Positions 41,769-53,311 of a DNA stretch of 64,000 bases are shown here, in pieces. The position numbers and the translations under genes were made by a program. The notes below the pieces were generated by a model. That model worked only from the letters and a program-made list of their open reading frames with translations, did no database searches and had not been told where the DNA came from. Source of the stretch: Actinomadura graeca (GTDB lineage: Bacteria > Actinomycetota > Actinomycetes > Streptosporangiales > Streptosporangiaceae); NCBI RefSeq assembly GCF_019175365.1, contig NZ_CP059572.1:1178001-1242000 (forward strand). Reading direction: 5' to 3'. How positions within the stretch are numbered: the first letter of the stretch is position 1; the number at the start of each line of letters is the position of its first letter.

Positions 41769-42425
41769 TCAGTCCGCGGGACCGGACGGGCCGTACTCCG
41801 GCGGCCTGACGCCCCGCTCCGCCGCCTCCGCCAGCTCCCCGGCGGTCAGGACGCGGGGCTCACCGATCATCCTGGCCCGCACGTACACGCCGCACAGCCA
41901 CTCCAGCAGCCGCGCGTTCTCGAACGCCTCGCCCAGGTCACGGCCGATCGCCACACCGCCGTGGTTGGCCAGGAGCGCGGCGCGCCTCCCGCCCTCCATG
42001 GCCGCGCGCACGTTCTCCGCCAGCTCGGGCGTCCCGTACGTGGCGTACGGGGCGACCCTCACCACCCCGCCCAGCAGCAGCGTGTTGTAGTGGACCGGCG
42101 GCAGCTCCGTCATCGTCGTCGCCACGACGGTGCCGTAGGTCGAGTGCGTGTGCACGACCGCCGACGCGGCGGTCGCCCCGTACAGCGCGAGATGCATGGG
42201 CGTCTCCGACGACGGCGCCCGGCCGCCCTCCACCGGCCGTCCCCGCACGTCCAGGACGGGGCAGTCCGCGGGCTCCATCCGGTCGAGCATCATCCCGCCC
42301 GGCGTGACCGCGACCAGGTCGCCCGCGCGCACACTGGCGTTGCCGGACGACCCGGTCACCAGACCGGTCTCCGCGAGCCTCCGGCCCACGCCGCACAGCG
42401 CGGCCCGCTCGTCACCCAGCAGCAT
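41769..42425 (-). CDS. Class II aldolase/adducin family protein
   Basis: ATG 42425 follows GGGAGGGG; the protein has 218 residues. The metal-binding His residues are in VVHTHSTYG (HxH) and in LLANHGGVAIG, and the start region has the LVTGSSGNASVRAG phosphate-binding motif. Relatives include L-fuculose-1-phosphate aldolase and ribulose-5-phosphate 4-epimerase. The substrate cannot be assigned. It follows the ACT-domain gene by 68 bases on the same strand. Confidence 0.9.
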   Translation of the reverse strand: MLLGDERAALCGVGRRLAETGLVTGSSGNASVRAGDLVAVTPGGMMLDRMEPADCPVLDVRGRPVEGGRAPSSETPMHLALYGATAASAVVHTHSTYGTVVATTMTELPPVHYNTLLLGGVVRVAPYATYGTPELAENVRAAMEGGRRAALLANHGGVAIGRDLGEAFENARLLEWLCGVYVRARMIGEPRVLTAGELAEAAERGVRPPEYGPSGPAD

Positions 42426-42493
42426 CGCGAACCCCTCCCGCCGGATCTCCCCCAGGCGTACGCCACCGGCCCGGCGATCACAAGGGGCCGGCG

Positions 42494-43129
42494 TCAGGGC
42501 GTGCGGAGCAGTCCCGCGGACAGCACCGCCGCCGCCGCGCCCGCGAGCTGCTCCAGCCGCAGCACCTCGGTCTGGTGGAACGGCGGCGCGCCCGCGCGGG
42601 ACACCACCAGCGCGCCGTTCCCCGGCATCGGGCAGATCGCGTACTCCGCGCCGTCCGGCGCGGTGAACGCCCGCGGCCGCAGCGGCTCCAGGGCGGGCGG
42701 CTCCGCGCCCTCCAGCCCGCCGACGCTGGCGTGCACGAGCACCGCCGTGCCGTCGGGGCCGGTCTCCGCCAGCCCGGCCCAGTCGGCGCTGAGGATGGCC
42801 GGGACGGCGTCGGCGAGGATCTCGGCGCCGCGCTCCGGCACCGCCGCGACCTGCCCGATCACGGCCGCGTCCGGGAACACGCCGTGCGGCTCGGCCGTCG
42901 GCCACACGCCGACGACGTCCACGCCGGGCACCGAGCCCAGCCCGCCGCGCAGCCGCCCGGCGTCGGCGCCCGCGGGCCAGGACACGGTGAAGTCGTCCAG
43001 CGCCCGGCCGTTGGCACGTTCCAGCACAGCCATCTGCACCACGTCGGCGCCGGCGGCGCCGAGCGTGCGCGCCACCTGCCCCAGCGAGCCGGGACGGTCC
43101 GGCAGGCGGACGCGAATCCGCAGCAACAT
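42494..43129 (-). CDS. ACT-domain-containing protein
   Basis: I chose ATG 43129 because GGAGGTG precedes it directly; a GTG at 43135 would lie within that ribosome site. The protein has 211 residues. Residues 1-75 form an ACT domain (RIRVRLPDRPGSLGQVARTL), which typically binds amino acids. The rest resembles a GAF-like or regulatory domain with ICPMPGNGALVVSR. No enzyme domain is attached, so it may sense an amino acid. The gene is transcribed away from grpE. Confidence 0.7.
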   Translation of the reverse strand: MLLRIRVRLPDRPGSLGQVARTLGAAGADVVQMAVLERANGRALDDFTVSWPAGADAGRLRGGLGSVPGVDVVGVWPTAEPHGVFPDAAVIGQVAAVPERGAEILADAVPAILSADWAGLAETGPDGTAVLVHASVGGLEGAEPPALEPLRPRAFTAPDGAEYAICPMPGNGALVVSRAGAPPFHQTEVLRLEQLAGAAAAVLSAGLLRTP

Positions 43130-43309
43130 CGCCACCTCCAGTGTCGGAATCCCCCTCAGAATGCGCGAGAGGCGTTTCCTTGGTGTTACCCACGCGTGTC
43201 GCCAACGGGAACCCGGTGCTGGATCGGCGGGCAGGGGTCAAACTAGAGTCCACTGAAGGTCAACCACACGCCTATCGCCGCAGCCGCCTCACCATTAAGG
43301 TAACCGCAC
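43130..43309. promoter_or_regulatory. Divergent region before the chaperone-GTPase operon
   Basis: This 180-base gap must hold the promoter of the six-gene operon starting at 43310. I looked for heat-shock operators: neither the HspR-type CTTGAGT-N7-ACTCAAG nor a CIRCE element is present. AAGG lies nine bases before the GTG start. No clear -35/-10 pair was found. Confidence 0.3.
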
Positions 43310-44053
43310 GTGTCGACGGACCGGGATCGCCCAGTCAACGACGGCTCTGGAGCCGAGCCGGAACCCGCCGGGGAGGGCACCGGCGATGACGGCGACGCCG
43401 CCTTCCGGGCGGAGGTCAGGCGGGCCCTCGCCGGGATGTCCGCCCGGCTCGACCGCGAGCACGAGCGCGCGGCGCACCGGGAGGCCGTCATCGACCGGCT
43501 GCACGAGGAGAACCAGCGGCTGCGCAGGGGGGAGCTCCAGGCGATGCTGGAGCCCGTGCGCGCCGCGCTGTACCGGCTCCACGACCAGGCGCGCCGCGAG
43601 TCGGGCAGGCTCGCCGCGCCGGACGGCGGCGACACGCCGGACCCCGCGCAGACCGCGCTGCTGCTGGCCGCGGTGGCCGACGACGTCGCCGACGCCCTCG
43701 CCCGGCTCGGCGTGGAGCGGTTCACCGTCGAGCCCGGCGCCCTCTACGACGCGTCCCGGCACCGGCCGGTCGCGGTCACCGCCGTCGCCGAGCCCGCCCG
43801 CGACGGCACCGTGGTCACCGTCCAGTCGGACGGCTTCGAGCAGGGCGGCAAGGTGCTGCGCAAGGCGGCGGTGTGCGTCGGAAGGCTCGACACGGCGGGG
43901 CCCGGCGCGGCGCCCCGCGGCACCGGACCCGACAGGACGGAGCTCGACCAGACCGGCCTCGGCGACACGGGGCCCGACAAGGCCCGGTCAAGTCGCCACC
44001 GCGCGGCAGGGCGCGGAGAGACGATGAACACCGGACTCGGCACCGATAGGTGA
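43310..44053 (+). CDS. grpE: GrpE-type nucleotide exchange factor
   Basis: The 247-residue protein starts at GTG 43310. A coiled-coil (about 45-85: EHERAAHREAVIDRLHEEN) precedes the beta-wing region (VTAVAEPARDGTVVTVQSDGFEQGG, then KVLRKAAVCVG), the GrpE layout. A Gly/Asp-rich tail of about 50 residues after the domain is unusual. GrpE releases ADP from Hsp70. The hsp70 gene follows seven bases later and lacks a dnaJ companion, so this is a dedicated copy serving the operon rather than the main dnaK operon. Confidence 0.82.
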   Translation: MSTDRDRPVNDGSGAEPEPAGEGTGDDGDAAFRAEVRRALAGMSARLDREHERAAHREAVIDRLHEENQRLRRGELQAMLEPVRAALYRLHDQARRESGRLAAPDGGDTPDPAQTALLLAAVADDVADALARLGVERFTVEPGALYDASRHRPVAVTAVAEPARDGTVVTVQSDGFEQGGKVLRKAAVCVGRLDTAGPGAAPRGTGPDRTELDQTGLGDTGPDKARSSRHRAAGRGETMNTGLGTDR

Positions 44054-44060
44054 GAGGGAC

Positions 44061-45644
44061 ATGGCTGTCTACGGGATCGACCTCGGAACCACGTACTCGT
44101 GCATCGCCTCCATCGACGAGGTGGGGCGGCCAGCGGTGCTGCGCAACCTGGAGGGGACCGACACCACGCCGTCGGTGGTGTACTTCGAGAGCGGCGACAA
44201 CGTCGTCGTCGGCGCGACCGCGAAGGACACCGCGGTCCTGGAGCCCGACAATGTCGTCAGCCTGATCAAACGCGACATGGGCCGGGACGTGACGCGTCCC
44301 ATCCACGGCATCGACTTCGCACCGGAGGAGCTGTCGGCGTTCATCCTGCTGAAGCTCGCGACGGACGCGCGCACCACGACGGGCGAGGAGACCCGCGACG
44401 TCGTCGTCACCGTCCCGGCCTACTTCGGCGCCGCCGAGCGCGACGCGACCCGCAAGGCGGGCCGGATCGCGGGCCTGAACGTCATCGACATCGTGTCCGA
44501 GCCGATCGCCGCCGCGATCACCTACGGGGTCCTCAACCCCGAGTCGGACCGGACGATCCTGGTGTACGACCTCGGCGGCGGGACGTTCGACACGACCGTC
44601 ATCGCGCTGCGCGGCGGCCACATCGAGGTGGTGTGCACCGACGGCGACCACGAGCTCGGCGGCGCCGACTGGGACGCGCGGCTCGTCGAGCACCTCGCCG
44701 AGCGGTTCCGCGCCGAGCACCCCGACGCGGGCGACCCGCTCGACGACAAGCAGACCGAGCAGCAGCTGCGCCGCGACGCCGAGGACGCCAAGAAGGCCCT
44801 CACCACCCGGACGGCGCACACCGTCCGGGTCATGCACGGCGGGCGGGTCGCCGTGGTGGAGGTGACGCGGGAGAAGCTGGAGGAGCTGACCAAGGACCTC
44901 CTCGACCGCACCGTCGAGATCACCGGGCGGACCCTCGCGACGGCCGCCGACAAGGGCGTCGACGACTACGACGACCTCGTCCTGGTGGGCGGGTCCACGA
45001 AGATGCCGGTGGTCGCGGCGCGGCTGGAGACCGAGCTGGGCCTCGCGCCGCGGCTGCAGGACCCCGACCTCGCCGTCGCGAAGGGCGCCGCCCTGTACGC
45101 CTTCGAGGAGACCTACCGGCGGCTCGTCCGCGAGGGGGCCGCCGAGCGCGCCGAGGAGATGGCGAACCGCGCGGGCCTGTCCGCCGAGCAGCAGAAGCAG
45201 ATCGCCGGGCGGCAGATCAAGACCGTCGCCTCGCACGCGTTCGGCATCGTCGTCGTCGACCGCGACAGCGGCGCCGAGCACGTCGCGCACCTCGTCCACG
45301 CCAACGACGCGCTGCCCGCCGCCAAGACCGAGGACTTCTTCACCGTCTACGACGACCAGACCTCCGCCGACATCCGGGTGATGGAGCAGGCGGGGAGCGT
45401 CGAGTCCGCCGAGCTGATCGACAACACCGAGATCGCGACCGGCGAGATCCGCGTCCCGCCGGGCAAGAAGGCGGGCTGGCCGATCGGGGTGACGTTCGCG
45501 CTGGACTCCTCCGGCCTGCTCAACGTCACGGCGGTGGAGAAGGAGACCGGCGAGCGCCTGGAGCTGAAGGTGGACGTCGGCGGCATGTCCGAGGAGGAGG
45601 TCGAGCGCTCCCGCAAGGCACTCTCCCGGGTGCAGGTGAGCTAG
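44061..45644 (+). CDS. Hsp70-family protein without lid domain
   Basis: This 527-residue chaperone has the complete actin-type ATPase domain: GIDLGTTYSCIA (phosphate 1), VVTVPAYFGAAERDATRKAG, VYDLGGGTFDTT (phosphate 2) and LVLVGGSTKMPVV (adenosine). A short beta-sandwich domain follows at 390-510. DnaK of about 610-640 residues has a C-terminal helical lid, which is missing here; the protein ends at KALSRVQVS. It may hold a dedicated client in the operon rather than fold general proteins. Gap to grpE is 7 bases and to the next gene 10. Confidence 0.92.
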   Translation: MAVYGIDLGTTYSCIASIDEVGRPAVLRNLEGTDTTPSVVYFESGDNVVVGATAKDTAVLEPDNVVSLIKRDMGRDVTRPIHGIDFAPEELSAFILLKLATDARTTTGEETRDVVVTVPAYFGAAERDATRKAGRIAGLNVIDIVSEPIAAAITYGVLNPESDRTILVYDLGGGTFDTTVIALRGGHIEVVCTDGDHELGGADWDARLVEHLAERFRAEHPDAGDPLDDKQTEQQLRRDAEDAKKALTTRTAHTVRVMHGGRVAVVEVTREKLEELTKDLLDRTVEITGRTLATAADKGVDDYDDLVLVGGSTKMPVVAARLETELGLAPRLQDPDLAVAKGAALYAFEETYRRLVREGAAERAEEMANRAGLSAEQQKQIAGRQIKTVASHAFGIVVVDRDSGAEHVAHLVHANDALPAAKTEDFFTVYDDQTSADIRVMEQAGSVESAELIDNTEIATGEIRVPPGKKAGWPIGVTFALDSSGLLNVTAVEKETGERLELKVDVGGMSEEEVERSRKALSRVQVS

Positions 45645-45654
45645 GGGCCCCGCC

Positions 45655-48309
45655 GTGCCGTTCGACGACGACTACCGGCGGGAGGTGCTGGAGCCCGCCC
45701 GGGCGGCCGGCGACCAGCCCCCCGAGGACCTGCGGCTCCGGTACGCGCTGCCCGACCCCCTGGAGGCCGCGGCGGTCGCCGCGCGCGTCAAGGAGGTCCG
45801 GCAGTGCTGGCGGCGGGCCCGCGGGCAGCTGAAGTACCGCAAGCTCATCGACCGGCTGGAGGCCGAGCACCGCGGGCTGGCGCCGCTGTTCGACGCCGCC
45901 GGGCGCGGCGACCTGCGGCCGCTCACCGGCCGCCTGCGCGGCGGCGCCGAGCGCACCGAGCGGCGGCGCGCCGACACGCGCGCGCGCCTCGCCGACGCCG
46001 CCGGGACGCTGCGGATGGTGACGCCCGCCGAGATCGAGGCCATCGCCCGCACCGGCGGCGTGACCCGCGCCGACCTGGAGGCCGTCGCGGCCGCCGAGGG
46101 CATCGAGGTCCGCGAGCCGGACGCGCTGCCGTCCGCCGCCCCCTACCCCGCGTACCGGAAGGTGCGCGAGTCCCTGGACGTCCTCGGCAAAAGGCACCTG
46201 GCCGACTTCCTGTTCGGCGTGCGGCTCGCGGGTCCCATCAAGGTCCTGGACGGGTTCGCGGCGCCCCCCGGCCTCCGGCTGGACGCCGCGGCGGTCGCGG
46301 CGGCGGGCGCCGAGTGGGCGCGCCGCAGCCGCGACACCAGCACCACCCACGCCGGCACCGTCCTGGCGGCGCTGCGGGCCGGGCACGACGACCCGGACGC
46401 GCTGCCGGGCCTCGTGCTGTTCGACATCGCCGACCGGCTCCGGGAGCGGCGGCGGCAGCGCGCCTCCGAGCACGCCCTGCTCCGGCACGCCGCCGAGGAC
46501 CTGCGCGTCGAGCAGGGCGACGCGCGGCGGCTGGTGTTCGCCGTCGTCCGCGAGACGGAACCGGCGGGCGGCGGCGGCCTCGCCGGGCGGCTGCGCGCCC
46601 TCCTGGACGCGGGCGAGGTGTACGCGGCCGCCGAGCTCGCCGACGCGGCGGAGGTCCCCCGCCCCGGGCCCGGCGCCGCCGACCGCGCCCCGGCCGGGGA
46701 CCCGCCGGAGGAGGAGGTCCTCGCCGCCGAGGCCCGGCACCGCCTCGACACGGCGCTGCGGCTGCGCGAGTCGGCCGTCGCCGAACCCGACCCGGACCGC
46801 GCGTGGGTCCTGCTCGCCGACGCGCTGCGCCTCGTCCGCGACCTGCCCGGTGCCGCCGAGCACCAGCGCCGCCTCCCGCCCCGGCCGGTGCCGCCCCCGC
46901 GCGCGGACGTCGATCCCGCGGACGGGTCGGTCCGGCTGTCCTGGGAGGCGTCGCCGTCGACGGTCGGCGAGGTCGCGTGCCATGTGGTGCGGCGGCGGGA
47001 CCGGGCGCCGCGTGACGCGCGCGACGGGGACCCCGTCACCGGCGTGCGGGACCCCAGCCCGCCGGTGAACGTGCCGCTGTACTACGGCGTGATCGCGGTC
47101 CGGGGCGAGGCCGCCGCCGCCCCGTCGGTGGTGGGCCCGCTGATCGTGCGGCCGGAGCCCGCCGACGTCGAGCTGCTGCCCGGCGACGGGCGGGTGACGG
47201 GCCGGTGGAGGTGCCCGGCCGGGGCCGCGCGCGTCGTGGTGGCCCGGGAGGGCACGATCGTCCCGTCCGGCCGGGACGGGTTCCAGGAGCGGGTCCCGAA
47301 CGGCCGCACCCACCACTACCGGATCGGCGCGGTGTACCTCGACGACTCGGGGAACGAGGTCGTGACGCCGGGGGTGCGGGCGTCGGTCACGCCGAGCGCC
47401 CCCCCGCGCCCGGTGTACGAGCTGGCCGCCGAGCCCGACCCGTCCGACCCGGGGCTGCTGCGGGTGCGGTTCGAGCGGCCCGCGCACGGGACGGTCGAGC
47501 TGGTGCTGTCGGCCGGGCCGCCGCCGTGGCCGCGCAGCGCGCTCGTGCCGGTGGAGGAGGTCCGGGCCGTGACGCGGAGGCTGGCGTGCCTGCCGGCCGG
47601 CGGCGGTCTCGACGTGCGGCCGGGCGCGGGCGGCTGGCTGCTCGCGGTGACGGTGGCCGAGGGCGTCGCCGCGATCGGCGCCTGCCACCGGCACGTGAAC
47701 CTGCCGCCGCCGCGGCGGCTGGTCACCGAGCGGCGCGGCGGCCACGTGCACGTCGGGTTCGACTGGCCGCCGGACGTCACGGAGGTCGACCTCGTCTACC
47801 ACGTCGGCGGCGACCCCGAGCGCTCCGCCGAGGACGGGCCGCCGCCCCGGGAGGCCGTGACGCGCGCCGCCTACGACACCGGTGGCGGGATCAGGGTGCC
47901 CGCCCCCGAGGACGAGCCGGTGCTGGTGTCGGTCGCGGCCGCCGGGACCGTGGGCGGCGTCCGGGTCACGGGCCCGGAGGTCACCGCCGTGGTCGCCGCC
48001 CGCGCGGTCGTCCGCTACGACGTGCTGCGGTCGGGCCCGCCGTGGCGCAGGTCGCTGACGATCCGGCTCAGCTCGTCCCGCCCGCTGCGGGTGGCGCGGC
48101 TGTCGCTGGTGCTGCGCGCCGGGCGCGTGATGCCGCACCGCGCGGCCGACGGCGAGACGCTCGCCGCGTGGGAGCAGGTCCCCGTCCCCGGCGAGCTGTC
48201 GCTGTCCGCCCCGCGCGCGGCCGGACCCTACTGGCTGCGCTGCTTCGCCGACGACGACGTCGTCGAGCTCAGCGATCCCCCCGTCCGCCGGCTCCAGGTC
48301 GCCCGATGA
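45655..48309 (+). CDS. Large helical and fibronectin-III-like multidomain protein of the chaperone-GTPase operon
   Basis: The 884-residue protein starts at GTG 45655. Residues 1-400 are mostly helical and Arg/Ala/Glu-rich, possibly coiled, with the motif EIEAIARTGGVTRADLEAVA. From about residue 415 onward several beta-sandwich repeats appear (SVRLSWEASPS, VTGRWRCPAGAARVVV, LLRVRFERPAHG, VHVGFDWPPDV), resembling fibronectin type III folds. It has no signal peptide or membrane segment, so it is probably cytoplasmic and could be an Hsp70 client or scaffold. I know no precise family. ATGA overlaps the next gene. Confidence 0.75.
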   Translation: MPFDDDYRREVLEPARAAGDQPPEDLRLRYALPDPLEAAAVAARVKEVRQCWRRARGQLKYRKLIDRLEAEHRGLAPLFDAAGRGDLRPLTGRLRGGAERTERRRADTRARLADAAGTLRMVTPAEIEAIARTGGVTRADLEAVAAAEGIEVREPDALPSAAPYPAYRKVRESLDVLGKRHLADFLFGVRLAGPIKVLDGFAAPPGLRLDAAAVAAAGAEWARRSRDTSTTHAGTVLAALRAGHDDPDALPGLVLFDIADRLRERRRQRASEHALLRHAAEDLRVEQGDARRLVFAVVRETEPAGGGGLAGRLRALLDAGEVYAAAELADAAEVPRPGPGAADRAPAGDPPEEEVLAAEARHRLDTALRLRESAVAEPDPDRAWVLLADALRLVRDLPGAAEHQRRLPPRPVPPPRADVDPADGSVRLSWEASPSTVGEVACHVVRRRDRAPRDARDGDPVTGVRDPSPPVNVPLYYGVIAVRGEAAAAPSVVGPLIVRPEPADVELLPGDGRVTGRWRCPAGAARVVVAREGTIVPSGRDGFQERVPNGRTHHYRIGAVYLDDSGNEVVTPGVRASVTPSAPPRPVYELAAEPDPSDPGLLRVRFERPAHGTVELVLSAGPPPWPRSALVPVEEVRAVTRRLACLPAGGGLDVRPGAGGWLLAVTVAEGVAAIGACHRHVNLPPPRRLVTERRGGHVHVGFDWPPDVTEVDLVYHVGGDPERSAEDGPPPREAVTRAAYDTGGGIRVPAPEDEPVLVSVAAAGTVGGVRVTGPEVTAVVAARAVVRYDVLRSGPPWRRSLTIRLSSSRPLRVARLSLVLRAGRVMPHRAADGETLAAWEQVPVPGELSLSAPRAAGPYWLRCFADDDVVELSDPPVRRLQVAR

Positions 48310-49553
48310 CGAGGCCGCTCGCCCGCGTGGGGCTCCCCGGCGCATCGTCCAGGAACGGTGTCACCTGCCCGTACTGCTTCGCGTCCGCGGCACCGCAGCG
48401 CATCCCGTTCCGGTGCCGCGGGCAGGCCGGCGGGACGCTCGGGTGCGCGCCCGTCCTGGACGAGCGGCTCGCCGCCTACACCGGCTCGACGGCCGGGGCG
48501 TCGCTGCCGCCGGTGTTCGCCGCGGCCGGGCGCAAGGGGCGCGCCGACTGCCCCGCGTGCGGGCGCCCGACGGGCAACCGGGTCTGCCCGGAGTGCCACA
48601 ACCCGCTCCCCTCCGCGTACTGCGACTCCCCCGGCCGGATCGTCGCGCTCGTCGGCGCGAAGAACGCGGGGAAGAGCACCTACATCGCCGTCCTGCTGCA
48701 CGAGCTGATGAACCGGGTCGGCACCGAGCTGGACGCCTCGCTCGTGGCCTGCGACGACCGGACGATCGAGCGGTACAAGCGCGACTTCGCCCGCCCGCTG
48801 CTGGAGGAGCGGCGGCTGCTGCCGACGACGGCCAGCGCCGCGACGGGCCCCCGCGAGCCGCTCGTCTACCTCCTCACCAGGACCCGCCGGGGCCGTTTCG
48901 CCCGCGCCCGCAACGACTCCCTGGCCCTCGTCCTGTTCGACACCGCGGGCGAGGACCTGCGCAGCCGCGAGGTCACCGACCTGCACCTGCGCTACCTGGA
49001 GGCCGCCGACGCGATCATCTTCCTCGTCGACCCGCTGGAGCTGCCCGGCGCCCGCGGCGAGCTGTCGCGGGGAGGCGAGGTGTCGCGGGGCGGCGATCCC
49101 CCGTCCCCCGACCCCGACAGCGAGCCGCTCAACGTCATCGCCCGGGTCACCGAGGCGCTCCGGCAGCGGCACGGCACCCGGCCGGGCGACCCGCTGCCCG
49201 TCCCGGTCGCGGTCGCGCTGACGAAGATCGACGTGCTGCGGCCGTCGCTGCTGCGGCAGTCGGCGCTGCACCGGACACGGTCCGGCACGGGCGTCCTGGA
49301 CCTGGACGACAGGGACGCTGTGGACGCGCAGGTCCGCGCGCTGCTGCACGACTGGCGGTCCGGGCAGCTCGACACCTACCTCGGGCAGCAGTACGCCGAC
49401 CACGCCCTGTTCGGGCTGTCGGCGCTCGGCGGCGTCCCCGAGGCCGGGCGGGTCGGCGCGGGCGGCGTCCGCCCCCACCGCGCGGAGGACCCGCTGCTGT
49501 GGCTGCTGTACCGGTTCGGGTTGCTCGACGGCGTGCGCCCCGGGGGGACGTGA
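48306..49553 (+). CDS. Zinc-ribbon TRAFAC-like GTPase (double-GTPase type)
   Basis: The protein has 415 residues from ATG 48306, overlapping the previous stop. Two zinc ribbons are at the N-terminus: CPYC near 20 with C-x-G-rich partner, then CPACGRPTGNRVCPEC near 79-95. The P-loop GTPase has Walker A LVGAKNAGKST (about 115-125), a G3-like LFDTAGED (about 210) and G4 LTKID (about 305). In published comparative work such GTPases pair with GAP1-like proteins in NTP-dependent conflict systems. It is followed by GAP1 with a GTGA overlap. Confidence 0.87.
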   Translation: MTRPLARVGLPGASSRNGVTCPYCFASAAPQRIPFRCRGQAGGTLGCAPVLDERLAAYTGSTAGASLPPVFAAAGRKGRADCPACGRPTGNRVCPECHNPLPSAYCDSPGRIVALVGAKNAGKSTYIAVLLHELMNRVGTELDASLVACDDRTIERYKRDFARPLLEERRLLPTTASAATGPREPLVYLLTRTRRGRFARARNDSLALVLFDTAGEDLRSREVTDLHLRYLEAADAIIFLVDPLELPGARGELSRGGEVSRGGDPPSPDPDSEPLNVIARVTEALRQRHGTRPGDPLPVPVAVALTKIDVLRPSLLRQSALHRTRSGTGVLDLDDRDAVDAQVRALLHDWRSGQLDTYLGQQYADHALFGLSALGGVPEAGRVGAGGVRPHRAEDPLLWLLYRFGLLDGVRPGGT

Positions 49554-51568
49554 CGGTGGCCTGGCAGCTGCACTACACCTCCGCCCGGCGCGGCCCCACC
49601 GGCCGGGCGGGCTTCCAGTTCGTCGCGGAGACGCCCGGCCTGCCCGACGGCGTGCGGGCGGGCGTGACGCCGTACCTGTCGTACCGGCCGCCGCCGGACG
49701 CGCCGCTGTCCCCCGACGACGCCGAGCTGGACCTGTTCCCCGTCTCGCTGCTCTACGACCGGGTGGACGGCAGGCCGCTGCTCCTGCGCTGCCGCTACCT
49801 CGGCCGGGACTACTCCGGCCGGTACGGCAACTTCTTCGCCCACGCGGTCGTCGCCGAGCCCGCCGAGCTGGAGGGACTGCGCCCCGCCGAGCTGTGGCAC
49901 GCCCCGCTGTGGACGGGCGAGCCCGCGACCGGCCCCGACCTGGAGGAGCTGGACGAGCTGACGCCCGGCGCCGTCCTGGACCCCGAGGCCCTCGCCACCT
50001 GGCTCGCCGCCGGGCCGGGGCCGGCGCCCCGGGCCGCCGGGGAGCGGCCCGAGGACCCCTACGCCACCCTCGCGCGGCTGGTGGACGCCGTCGCGGCCGT
50101 GCTCCGCCGGGGGCACGGGCGGGTCGTCCTCATCGCCGGGGACGTCGAGCTGATCGCCCGCTGGATCGCGGTCGTGTCCTACTCGCTGCCGGTCGCGGCG
50201 GCGGCCGGGCTGTCGTTCGTCACCTACACCGCCGACCCGGACGGCGCCGCGCAGCGCCTCGTCGGCACCACGCCGGACGTGTGGGCCGCCGTGCGCCACC
50301 ACACGTCCCACGCCGCCGCCATCGACCTGCGGGGAGGCGGGACGGCGGCCGGGCCCTCCCGGTTCGCCCGCACGGTCGCCGACTGCTGGCGCGACGCGGA
50401 CTTCGCCGGCCTCGACGCCCTCGCCGAGCTGGCCCACCTGGACGCCGGCACGCCGGACGGGGCGGCGGCGCTGCTCGCGCTGTGCCGCGGCGACGCGTCG
50501 GTGACGCCGGGCGAGGAGGAGACGGCGGCGCGGCTGCTGGCCCGGCTCGGCGACGCCGGGCCGGGCGGGCCGCTGCTGGACGGCCTGGTCTCCGGCCTCG
50601 CCGGGTCCGGGCGGCGCGACCTCACCGCCGCCACCTGCGACCTGCTGTCCGAGCACCCCGGGCGGCTGCGCGCCGCGCCCTCGGTCGCGGTCGCGGTGCT
50701 GGCGTCGGTGGGACGGCGGCGCCGCGACCGGCGCGTCGCCGTCACCGGGGAGCTGCTGCGGCTCGGCGACGGCGACGGCCCCGCGGGCGGCCCGGCGCGG
50801 GACACGGCGCCGGGCAGGGACCTCGACGCGGCGCTGGAGCAGGTGTGGACGTCGCCGCCGTCCGCGTCCGAGTGCGTCGCGCTGCTGGACGCGCACCCCG
50901 AGGCGATGGCGGGGCGCCCGGTGCTGGCGGTGCTGCCGTCCCGCACGTTCGCGCGGCTGGCCGACGCCCGCCCGGGCAAGACCGGCGCCGGTGCCGTCCC
51001 GCCGGACGCGGGCCTGACGGACGCGGCGGCGCTGCGGCTCGCCGCGCGGGTCAGGGCCGTCGCGCCGGACGGTCCCGCGGGGTGCGACGCGACGGTCGTC
51101 CAGGCGCACGCCGACGCCGTCACCGCCGACGGCCCGCGGCAGGCCGCGCGGGCGCTGGAGGACCTGGCGGGCGCGTCCGGCGCGAACCCCCGGCTGGTGG
51201 ACGCGGCGTTCACCGGCGCGGCGCGGCGGCTGTGCCGGCGCCCGCCGCCGTTCCGCGCCGCGCTGCTCGCCGCCGCGTCCACCGCCGTCCGCGCGAGGCT
51301 CGGCGGGCGGTGGACCGCGGAGCTGCCCGGACGCGCCCGCGCCGGCCGCGCGCCCCTGCGCGGCGCGGAGGTCGAGCAGCGCAACCAGCTCGTCGAGGTC
51401 GTGCTGAGGCTGCGCAAGCGCGGCGTCACCGAGCCCGCGCTGGAGACGTGGGCGCGGGCGGCCGCCGCCCGGTGGCTCGCCGCCCGCCAGCTCGACTCCC
51501 ACTTCGCGGGCGAGCCGCAGCTCCAGGCGGCGCTGAAGGACCTCCTCGCCGAGGCCAGGGGGAGGTGA
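49550..51568 (+). CDS. GTPase-associated protein 1 (GAP1)-like protein
   Basis: This 672-residue protein starts at GTG 49550, overlapping the previous stop. The N-terminus, AWQLHYTSARRGPTGRAGFQ, then PYLSYRPPPDAP and GRYGNFFAHAVV, matches the GAP1 N-terminal domain family. The middle part with LSFVTYTADPD and AAIDLRGGG and the helical C-terminal half correspond to GAP1 middle and C-terminal parts. Biochemical function is unknown. Its position between two GTPase genes suggests that it binds or regulates one of them. Confidence 0.85.
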   Translation: MTVAWQLHYTSARRGPTGRAGFQFVAETPGLPDGVRAGVTPYLSYRPPPDAPLSPDDAELDLFPVSLLYDRVDGRPLLLRCRYLGRDYSGRYGNFFAHAVVAEPAELEGLRPAELWHAPLWTGEPATGPDLEELDELTPGAVLDPEALATWLAAGPGPAPRAAGERPEDPYATLARLVDAVAAVLRRGHGRVVLIAGDVELIARWIAVVSYSLPVAAAAGLSFVTYTADPDGAAQRLVGTTPDVWAAVRHHTSHAAAIDLRGGGTAAGPSRFARTVADCWRDADFAGLDALAELAHLDAGTPDGAAALLALCRGDASVTPGEEETAARLLARLGDAGPGGPLLDGLVSGLAGSGRRDLTAATCDLLSEHPGRLRAAPSVAVAVLASVGRRRRDRRVAVTGELLRLGDGDGPAGGPARDTAPGRDLDAALEQVWTSPPSASECVALLDAHPEAMAGRPVLAVLPSRTFARLADARPGKTGAGAVPPDAGLTDAAALRLAARVRAVAPDGPAGCDATVVQAHADAVTADGPRQAARALEDLAGASGANPRLVDAAFTGAARRLCRRPPPFRAALLAAASTAVRARLGGRWTAELPGRARAGRAPLRGAEVEQRNQLVEVVLRLRKRGVTEPALETWARAAAARWLAARQLDSHFAGEPQLQAALKDLLAEARGR

Positions 51569-51571
51569 GGG

Positions 51572-53311
51572 ATGCATCCGATCATCGTCCTCGTGCTGAT
51601 CGCGGTGTGGCTCGGCGCCATGTGGCTCGGGTTCATGGTCGTGTTCCCGGTGTTGTTCCCCGCGACGCTGATCGTCGCCGGGGCCGCCGCGCTCGGCCTG
51701 TACTACCTGCACGCGTGCCGGACGCTCGCGCCGTCGACGCTGGAGGGCCCCTCTCCGGTCGCCTCCCCCCGGGTCGCCTACCGGCACTACCTCCTGACGC
51801 AGGTGTGGCGCGACTGGTGGGCGATCACGCGGACGGTCGTCCCGCAGGTGTGGAAGACCGCCTCGGGGATCGTGGTGAGGCTGACCCGGACGCTGCTGCT
51901 CGGCGGGCTGTGGGGGTTCTTCGCGTTCCCGATCTGGGCGGCCCTGTGCGCGGGCATCGCCACCGCGGCCGTCCCCGCCGGTGTGTTCGTGCTGGCGCTG
52001 ACCGTCCTGTACGGGCTGGTGGCGGCGATCGGGCTCGCGGGATGGCTGGCGTGCGTGCTGGTCCTGGCGGCCGTCGAGCGGGTGTTCATGGCGTACGGGC
52101 GGATCCTGCAGACCTGCCCGCATCCGTTCTGTTACGAGCGGATCGGGCTGCCGGTGTACGAGTGCCCGGGGTGCGGCGCGCGGCACCGGCGCCTGACCCC
52201 GGGCGCGGGCGGGGCGTTCCGCCACGTGTGCCGCTGCGGGGCGCGCCTGCCCACGACCGTCCCGCTGGGGCGCTTCCGGCTCGCCGCCCACTGCCCGCAC
52301 TGCGACGGGCGGCTGCCGGAGCGGATCGGGCGGGTCCGCGTCGAGCCGCTGCCGTTCGTCGGAGGCCCGGCGGCGGGCAAGACCACGTTCATGGTGCTCG
52401 GGATACGTGCGCTGCACGCGCGCGCGCAGTCCCTCCACGGGCGGCTGACGTTTGTGGAGCAACGGCACGCGCAGGCGTACGCGGGCGCCATCCGCGAGTT
52501 CCAGCGCGGCGGGAGCCCCGCGAAGACCGGCCCGGAACTGCCGCTCGCGACCATGGTGGACGTGGACCTTCCCGGACGCGCGCGGCGGATCCTCTACCTG
52601 TTCGATCCGGCAGGTGAGCATTACACGGGCGCCACAGAAGTCGAGTCGCTGCGCTATCTCGACCACGGTGAGGCGCTGCTGTTCGTCGTGGACCCGTTCG
52701 CGCTCCCCCAGGTCCGCCGGGCCCTCACCGAGGACGAGCGGCGGCTCGTGGACGGCTCGGCGGCGTCCTCGGAGGAGGACCCCGCCGACACCCTCCAGCG
52801 GGTGCTGAACGAGCTGCGCTCGCGTCCCGACCAGGGGCGGCAGAAGCGCGTCGCCGTCATCGTCACCAAGACCGACCTGCTGGCCCGCACCGACATCGGC
52901 CGCCGTCTCGAACACGACCCCGACCTGCGGGAATGGCTCGCGCAGGTCGGGCTCGGCAACACCGTCCGGACCCTGGACCAGGTCGCCGGGCAGGTCCGCT
53001 ACTTCGGCTCCGGCCTGGCCACCGAGCCCGCCGGCGTCGCCGACCTGCTCGGCTGGGTGTCGGGCCTCGCCGCCCCGCCCGCGGACGGCGGCGCGGACGC
53101 CGCGTCCGGAGACGGCCAGGCCGATGACGGCCAGGAGGTGCCCGGGACCGCGCCGCTGCGCGCCCCCTGGCCCGTGCGCGGACGCGGCTCGGGGCGGGTC
53201 CCCGCCGGTTACCAGGTGGGACGCTGGTCCGTCCTCGCCGGGCTGTCGGTCCTGACCATCGCCACGGTGACCGGGGCGGTCGTCGCCGCGGCGGAGCGCT
53301 TCCCTTACTGA
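51572..53311 (+). CDS. Membrane-anchored zinc-ribbon GTPase (double-GTPase type)
   Basis: The protein has 579 residues from ATG 51572, three bases after the GAP1 stop. The N-terminal region has two hydrophobic segments (5-45) and further ones at 105-165. Zinc-ribbon cysteines follow: CPHPFC, YECPGCGARH and CRCGARL with CPHCDGR. The GTPase domain has Walker A FVGGPAAGKTTF near 265, LFDPAGEHY near 345 and G4 VTKTDLL near 430. A final helix (VLAGLSVLTIATVTGAVV) anchors the C-terminus. It is likely the membrane arm of the two-GTPase system. Confidence 0.87.
   Translation: MHPIIVLVLIAVWLGAMWLGFMVVFPVLFPATLIVAGAAALGLYYLHACRTLAPSTLEGPSPVASPRVAYRHYLLTQVWRDWWAITRTVVPQVWKTASGIVVRLTRTLLLGGLWGFFAFPIWAALCAGIATAAVPAGVFVLALTVLYGLVAAIGLAGWLACVLVLAAVERVFMAYGRILQTCPHPFCYERIGLPVYECPGCGARHRRLTPGAGGAFRHVCRCGARLPTTVPLGRFRLAAHCPHCDGRLPERIGRVRVEPLPFVGGPAAGKTTFMVLGIRALHARAQSLHGRLTFVEQRHAQAYAGAIREFQRGGSPAKTGPELPLATMVDVDLPGRARRILYLFDPAGEHYTGATEVESLRYLDHGEALLFVVDPFALPQVRRALTEDERRLVDGSAASSEEDPADTLQRVLNELRSRPDQGRQKRVAVIVTKTDLLARTDIGRRLEHDPDLREWLAQVGLGNTVRTLDQVAGQVRYFGSGLATEPAGVADLLGWVSGLAAPPADGGADAASGDGQADDGQEVPGTAPLRAPWPVRGRGSGRVPAGYQVGRWSVLAGLSVLTIATVTGAVVAAAERFPY

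Follow-up and report, generated by a model that had tools for sequence, protein, structure and literature searches.

Six co-directional open reading frames (ORFs) that fill positions 43,310 to 53,311 of the + strand in a 64,000-nt stretch of Actinomadura graeca DNA (the window; contig NZ_CP059572.1, positions 1,178,001 to 1,242,000) form a conserved unit of GrpE, Hsp70, an FN3-repeat protein, two GTPases and a GAP1 protein that is inherited like a core function in the genus Actinomadura. By its domain content the operon is a member of the HSP70/GrpE theme of the GAP1-N2 double-GTPase systems, a published kind. The best reading, which we judge about as probable as its opposite, is a membrane-anchored two-GTPase switch with a longin-DENN-like regulator and a J-independent Hsp70 as assembly module; we infer every interaction and activity in it from gene content, gene order, conservation, motif changes and predicted folds. 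What is new here, and testable, is the near-core inheritance in the genus, together with a longin-DENN-like nature of GAP1, suggested by its structure model, and a predicted J-independence of the Hsp70.

The ORFs, each of which was confirmed, encode a GrpE-like nucleotide exchange factor with a GTG start (43,310..44,053, 247 amino acids (aa); Pfam GrpE 3.8e-8), an Hsp70 (44,061..45,644, 527 aa; Pfam HSP70 5e-104), an FN3-like protein (45,655..48,309, 884 aa), a soluble double-zinc-ribbon DO-GTPase (48,306..49,553, 415 aa; Pfam DO-GTPase2 2.2e-10), GAP1 (49,550..51,568, 672 aa; Pfam GAP1-N2 5.4e-43 and GAP1-M 3.7e-21) and a membrane DO-GTPase with zinc ribbons (51,572..53,311, 579 aa; Pfam DO-GTPase2 3.7e-22). 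As read from the sequence, the genes are separated, in order, by 7 bp, 10 bp, a 4-bp overlap, a second 4-bp overlap and 3 bp. A first-pass annotation made from the letters alone had described a unit with gaps of at most 10 bases and 4-bp overlaps, lacking dnaJ, and all of its coordinates and spacings hold, as does the gene content. Spacing and conservation point to a single transcript. A simple promoter and terminator scan was uninformative, with none found against 0 and 0.5 expected by chance.

To determine how far this order extends, GAP1-N2 was searched in the host family and in the phylum, the stretches around all matches were retrieved, and the other five proteins were sought on these GAP1 loci with profiles built from the window's proteins. 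The full six-gene order is present in 44 of the 63 GAP1 loci, the window counted (of L096 and L097, one repeats the GAP1 contained in the other). Several of the remaining 19 are on contigs that are short or cut (L043, L049, L055, L063, L073, L081 and L095 among them), and the profiles detected no complete chaperone half at L090, L096, L097, L098 and L099. In a set of named loci retrieved by way of the FN3 protein, which comprises the best 80 of 118 relatives and overlaps the GAP1-locus set, the order recurs in 71; the closest named relatives are Actinomadura species. A conserved order had been set beforehand as the supporting test. The claim that Hsp70/GrpE, the two GTPases and GAP1 are one conserved unit is strongly supported by these counts and by the pairwise distances of the six proteins, which correlate at 0.88-0.98 over the 72 loci that have all six (the 71 named loci and the window). 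Because of this correlation, the six proteins can be said to travel together. GAP1 adjoins the GTPases in nearly all loci.

GAP1-N2 is present in 62 of 65 Actinomadura genomes, in 49 of 150 genomes and 20 of 68 genera of the host family, and in 4 of 296 genomes of the phylum, the own genome included. The three Actinomadura genomes with no match all consist of 570-800 contigs. Two of them hold a partial FN3 protein, with residues 2-412 matched in one and 1-88 in the other, probably cut at a contig end, so that the unit is likely present in 64 of the 65. Directly upstream, on the - strand, is a divergent ACT-like ORF (42,494..43,129; ACT 4.7e-6, just under the cut-off), with an Aldolase_II gene behind it on the same strand (about 41,769..42,467). 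The ACT-like neighbour is common to 46 of 81 loci, namely the window, 41 of the 51 named Actinomadura loci, two from Thermomonospora, one from Actinocorallia and one unclassified; a different upstream neighbour is common to 13 loci of other genera. The window and 30 Actinomadura loci also have a downstream MFS gene in common. These counts retain loci with short flanks; more than 1.5 kb is available upstream in 74 and downstream in 72 of the 80. Between the ACT-like ORF and the GrpE-like gene lies an intergenic region (43,130..43,309, + strand) in which the ribosome-binding and start region, including the context of the GrpE start codon, is conserved (34 upstream regions aligned).

In a midpoint-rooted tree of four concatenated proteins, the sequences from Sphaerisporangium (7), Herbidospora (5), Acrocarpospora (3), Nonomuraea (2) and Thermomonospora (2) are each kept together as a group. 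Those from Actinomadura do not form one clade, their 47 rows being spread over a 54-row clade that also contains Thermomonospora, Actinocorallia, Actinoallomurus and an unclassified row, in part because L162, a contig labelled Actinomadura sp. DC4, stands beside Actinoallomurus in the operon tree, perhaps a matter of naming. Within the genus, inheritance is mostly vertical and near-core; between genera it is a matter of presence or absence. Carriage by plasmids or phages was set aside, as a search of 72,556 plasmid records and 50,697 phage records gave no match to GAP1.

The own genome provides an internal contrast to this near-core spread in the form of a GTPase-free sister module (L100) that encodes GrpE, Hsp70, an Hsp70-vWA fusion, and a 1009-aa protein that resembles the FN3 protein and matches a zinc ribbon weakly. 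Full-length relatives of the 1009-aa protein are found in two of the 65 genus genomes, own included, and a third match in the genus covers part of the protein and is located next to the GAP1 of the genome concerned. Elsewhere, three pairs of loci (L045/L059, L047/L083 and L104/L049) document genomes in which two GAP1-N2 systems coexist, one similar to that of the window and the other of a subtype more distant from it; at L083 and L094, which are of the distant subtype, a second Hsp70 gene lies within a few kb of the unit. In the control genome, Corynebacterium glutamicum, GAP1-N2 also gives a match above the cut-off; this tractable laboratory organism might serve for work on the class.

Kaur et al. 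2020 described GAP1-N2 systems with DO-GTPases and FNIII proteins, with HSP70 and GrpE in about 14% of neighbourhoods (PMC7159879). The dedicated chaperone pair, correctly singled out as unusual by the first-pass annotation, was therefore already published. As in that theme, the operon has GAP1-N2 and GAP1-M domains above the cut-off, two paralogous zinc-ribbon DO-GTPases with a Glu in Walker B, and genes for an FNIII-repeat protein, HSP70 and GrpE close together in an actinobacterial host. One of the two GTPases has hydrophobic segments at both ends, which fit the published four-plus-one transmembrane form. It departs from the theme in that its FN3 protein has no recognised DnaJ or TPR domain, to either of which the published form is typically fused, in that no linked variable effector was recognised, and in being near-core in a genus; the losses of linker, lid and J-contact in Hsp70 described below go unmentioned in the accessible text of the paper (PMC7159879). 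The words longin, DENN, roadblock, TagF and GEF are absent from its main text. No experimental study of the class, nor any note of the GAP1 fold, was found in the open-access literature; other literature may hold one.

The operon Hsp70s of the 72 loci are 527-530 residues long and stop shortly behind the beta substrate-binding domain (SBD-beta), so the helical lid is absent, as had been noted from the window alone. The ATPase motifs of the nucleotide-binding domain are conserved and the SBD-beta can be aligned with that of DnaK. A VLLLD-type linker, which both DnaKs compared from the genome (L001 and L108) possess, is present in 0 of 72, and some 40 residues stand in its place (45,099..45,230 in the window; borders approximate, estimated by aligning it with the two DnaKs). 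Where DnaK has Arg167, a J-domain contact, all 72 carry an Asp (Asp143 in the window, codon verified at 44,487..44,489), against Arg in the two DnaKs; the sister module has Glu in one Hsp70 and Arg in the vWA-fused one. In a second set, of 51 operon Hsp70s, which overlaps the named set, the linker is again found in none, and the Arg167 position is Asp in 37 and Gly in one, with 13 not fitting the search expression. Arg167 of DnaK pairs with Asp393 of the linker and is also touched by the HPD Asp of the J-domain, and changing Arg167 or its partners is described as raising basal activity somewhat and making J-protein stimulation ineffective (PMC7289447, PMC8215388). Given this literature and the Asp found in place of Arg167, the lack of a dnaJ gene in the operon matches the lost J-contact of its Hsp70, and, because lid, allosteric linker and J-domain-contacting arginine are all lost, the protein is predicted to be J-protein-independent. 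Compared with DnaK-DnaJ-GrpE, then, the operon shares the Hsp70 ATPase motifs, SBD-beta and a GrpE C-terminal domain (residues 122-191, the only part by which the GrpE is recognised), but has no DnaJ, lid, VLLLD linker or arginine at this position, and a HAIR scan upstream is empty. Consensus scans of 42,900-43,400 found neither a HAIR nor a CIRCE operator; the HAIR control detected a site with 2 mismatches in 20 kb around one dnaK (L108) but no site in the 4.8 kb surrounding a second Hsp70 (L001), and for CIRCE there was no positive control. Membership of the heat-shock regulon was dropped on these results, which agree, within the reach of those controls, with the earlier remark that no heat-shock operator was seen.

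The 884-residue protein has no Pfam match above the cut-off. In its predicted structure, the C-terminal half is a row of about five FN3 domains (residues 408-884), and residues 1-405 are helical and barely covered by a fold search. The N-terminus of its relative in the sister module looked J-like by eye, although lacking HPD, but a J-domain was rejected as Pfam DnaJ is absent there and from residues 1-408 of the window's protein. In both DO-GTPases the P-loop, G3 and G4 motifs (GAKNAGKS, DTAGE and TKID in the soluble one; GGPAAGKT, DPAGE and TKTD in the membrane one) are conserved in the 72 loci, as are Cys sets typical of zinc ribbons. The G3 Glu (Walker B) is invariant, as DTAGE in 72 of 72 soluble and DP[AS]GE in 72 of 72 membrane proteins, and in both presumably sits where Ras has Gln61. 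Residues 1-46, 107-179 and 552-575 of the membrane GTPase are hydrophobic segments, compatible with four N-terminal transmembrane helices and one at the C-terminus.

For GAP1, the AlphaFold2 model (predicted local distance difference test score 92.4, predicted template modelling score 0.83) suggests a longin and DENN-like domain pair in residues 1-334 (49,550..50,551). Arg91 (codon verified at 49,820..49,822), which the model puts in the strand 4-5 loop of the longin-like domain, is kept as Arg in 40 of 42 GAP1 sequences from a diverse set. The window's GAP1 does not have a helical-region segment after residue ~339 (125 alignment columns) that is found in most rows of the GAP1 alignment; four other rows are as short or shorter. 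We tentatively propose, at somewhat less than even confidence, that GAP1 is a bacterial longin-DENN regulator and the operon an actinomycete two-GTPase and longin-DENN module, of the Rag/FLCN-FNIP or Rab/DENN type, coupled to a J-independent Hsp70. Like DENND1, FLCN-FNIP2 and C9orf72-SMCR8, GAP1 has a predicted order of longin-like, DENN-like and helical parts, a conserved Arg in the longin loop and, judged by gene context, GTPases with which it would act. It differs from them in being bacterial, with no detectable sequence similarity, a long C-terminal helical repeat and an activity that is predicted, and the GTPases it would act with belong to the TRAFAC DO-GTPases instead of Rab, Arf or Rag. 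MglB consists of one roadblock domain and MglA is not known to be a DO-GTPase, and GAP1 is further set apart from the MglA-MglB switch by its DENN-like domain and helical repeat. The two systems are alike in that a bacterial GTPase is encoded alongside a longin/roadblock-related regulator (PMC3521125). The same survey, from 2012, states that DENN and d-DENN domains had until then been known only together, in the DENN module, and dates many homologs of that module to the ancestral eukaryote (PMC3521125).

In the proposed mechanism, the two DO-GTPases would work as a pair, one soluble and the other embedded in the membrane through a number of helices at its N-terminus and a single one at its C-terminus. 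GAP1 would bind this pair through its longin-like and DENN-like domains, as DENN, FLCN-FNIP and C9orf72-SMCR8 bind eukaryotic GTPases. Arg91 is a candidate catalytic finger, which would make GAP1 a GTPase-activating protein; otherwise it would be an exchange factor. The Hsp70, with its ATPase and peptide-binding beta domain retained, could cycle in the absence of a J-protein, with the operon GrpE serving for nucleotide exchange and the FN3 protein as a permanent partner, and this Hsp70 module would set the assembly state of the GTPase complex.

A different explanation for GAP1 is that the DENN likeness is no more than a common alpha/beta arrangement and that the protein is a scaffold of helical repeats, its N-terminal part unrelated to DENN, which does not regulate nucleotide state. 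The DENN assignment is unsupported by sequence, searches of GAP1 with DENN/uDENN profiles and a PDB profile search being negative. (The 2012 survey reportedly shares authors with Kaur et al.) HEAT/ARM-type repeats rank first when the model is searched with Foldseek, and the DENN matches have a root-mean-square deviation above 5 A, all of which speaks for a scaffold; the DENN matches nevertheless span both domains in order over residues 1-334, come from several entries and score 9.8 and 9.6, against at most 6.2 for other rows, and the adjacency of GAP1 to its GTPases likewise speaks for a regulator. We regard the scaffold as doubtful but worth serious attention. By analogy with SRP (the signal recognition particle), the unit might instead be a specialised chaperone and targeting machine for membrane or cell-envelope proteins, in which Hsp70 and the FN3 protein hold clients that the GTPases direct to the membrane. 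A membrane GTPase with zinc ribbons, an Hsp70 with intact ATPase motifs and alignable SBD-beta, a retained GrpE and core-like inheritance would all suit such a machine, but the loss of lid, linker and J-domain contact in 72 of 72 loci argues against a general client-folding cycle and Pfam recognised no signal-peptide-binding domain in the six proteins; we consider this machine improbable.

"Conflict or signalling system" had been the first-pass description, and signalling fits the reading of a GTPase switch given above. For this genus, a conflict role is unsupported. Such a role was proposed for the class by Kaur et al., who noted its association with a multicellular habit (PMC7159879), and here could take the form of an anti-phage or other conflict system in which the FN3 protein senses an invader, GTPases and Hsp70 set the threshold and the membrane component is the effector. 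The patchy occurrence in family and phylum is consistent with this, as are the median distances of the FN3 protein and GAP1, at 2.2x and 2.6x that of Hsp70. However, sporadic presence among close relatives, a trait of defence systems, is contradicted by the 62 of 65 genus genomes, a figure that contrasts with the two of 65 in which the FN3-like protein of the sister module has full-length relatives; the upstream neighbour is the same in 41 of 51 named Actinomadura loci, the trees largely follow genera, and GAP1 is missing from the plasmid and phage records searched. With a mean column identity of 46% over 53 sequences, the FN3 protein is not hypervariable. No effector domain was recognised by Pfam in the six proteins, or in the four reading frames scanned among the window's neighbours, and a known defence system was set aside as PADLOC gave matches only at E 0.01 or weaker; an effector of a type not yet described is conceivable. 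Because the system is patchy at the family scale (49 of 150), a conflict role is still to be reckoned with, but is unlikely.

Within the open-access literature, this class has been described by comparative genomics alone. If GAP1 is longin-DENN-like, experiments on purified proteins could test the mechanism directly, and bacteria would have a counterpart of a regulator type whose families the 2012 survey traced back to the ancestor of eukaryotes (PMC3521125). The Hsp70, if read correctly, would be a natural case that keeps GrpE despite the loss of the known J-domain contact and linker. For Actinomadura, the near-core distribution of the unit calls for a physiological role in addition to conflict or in its place.
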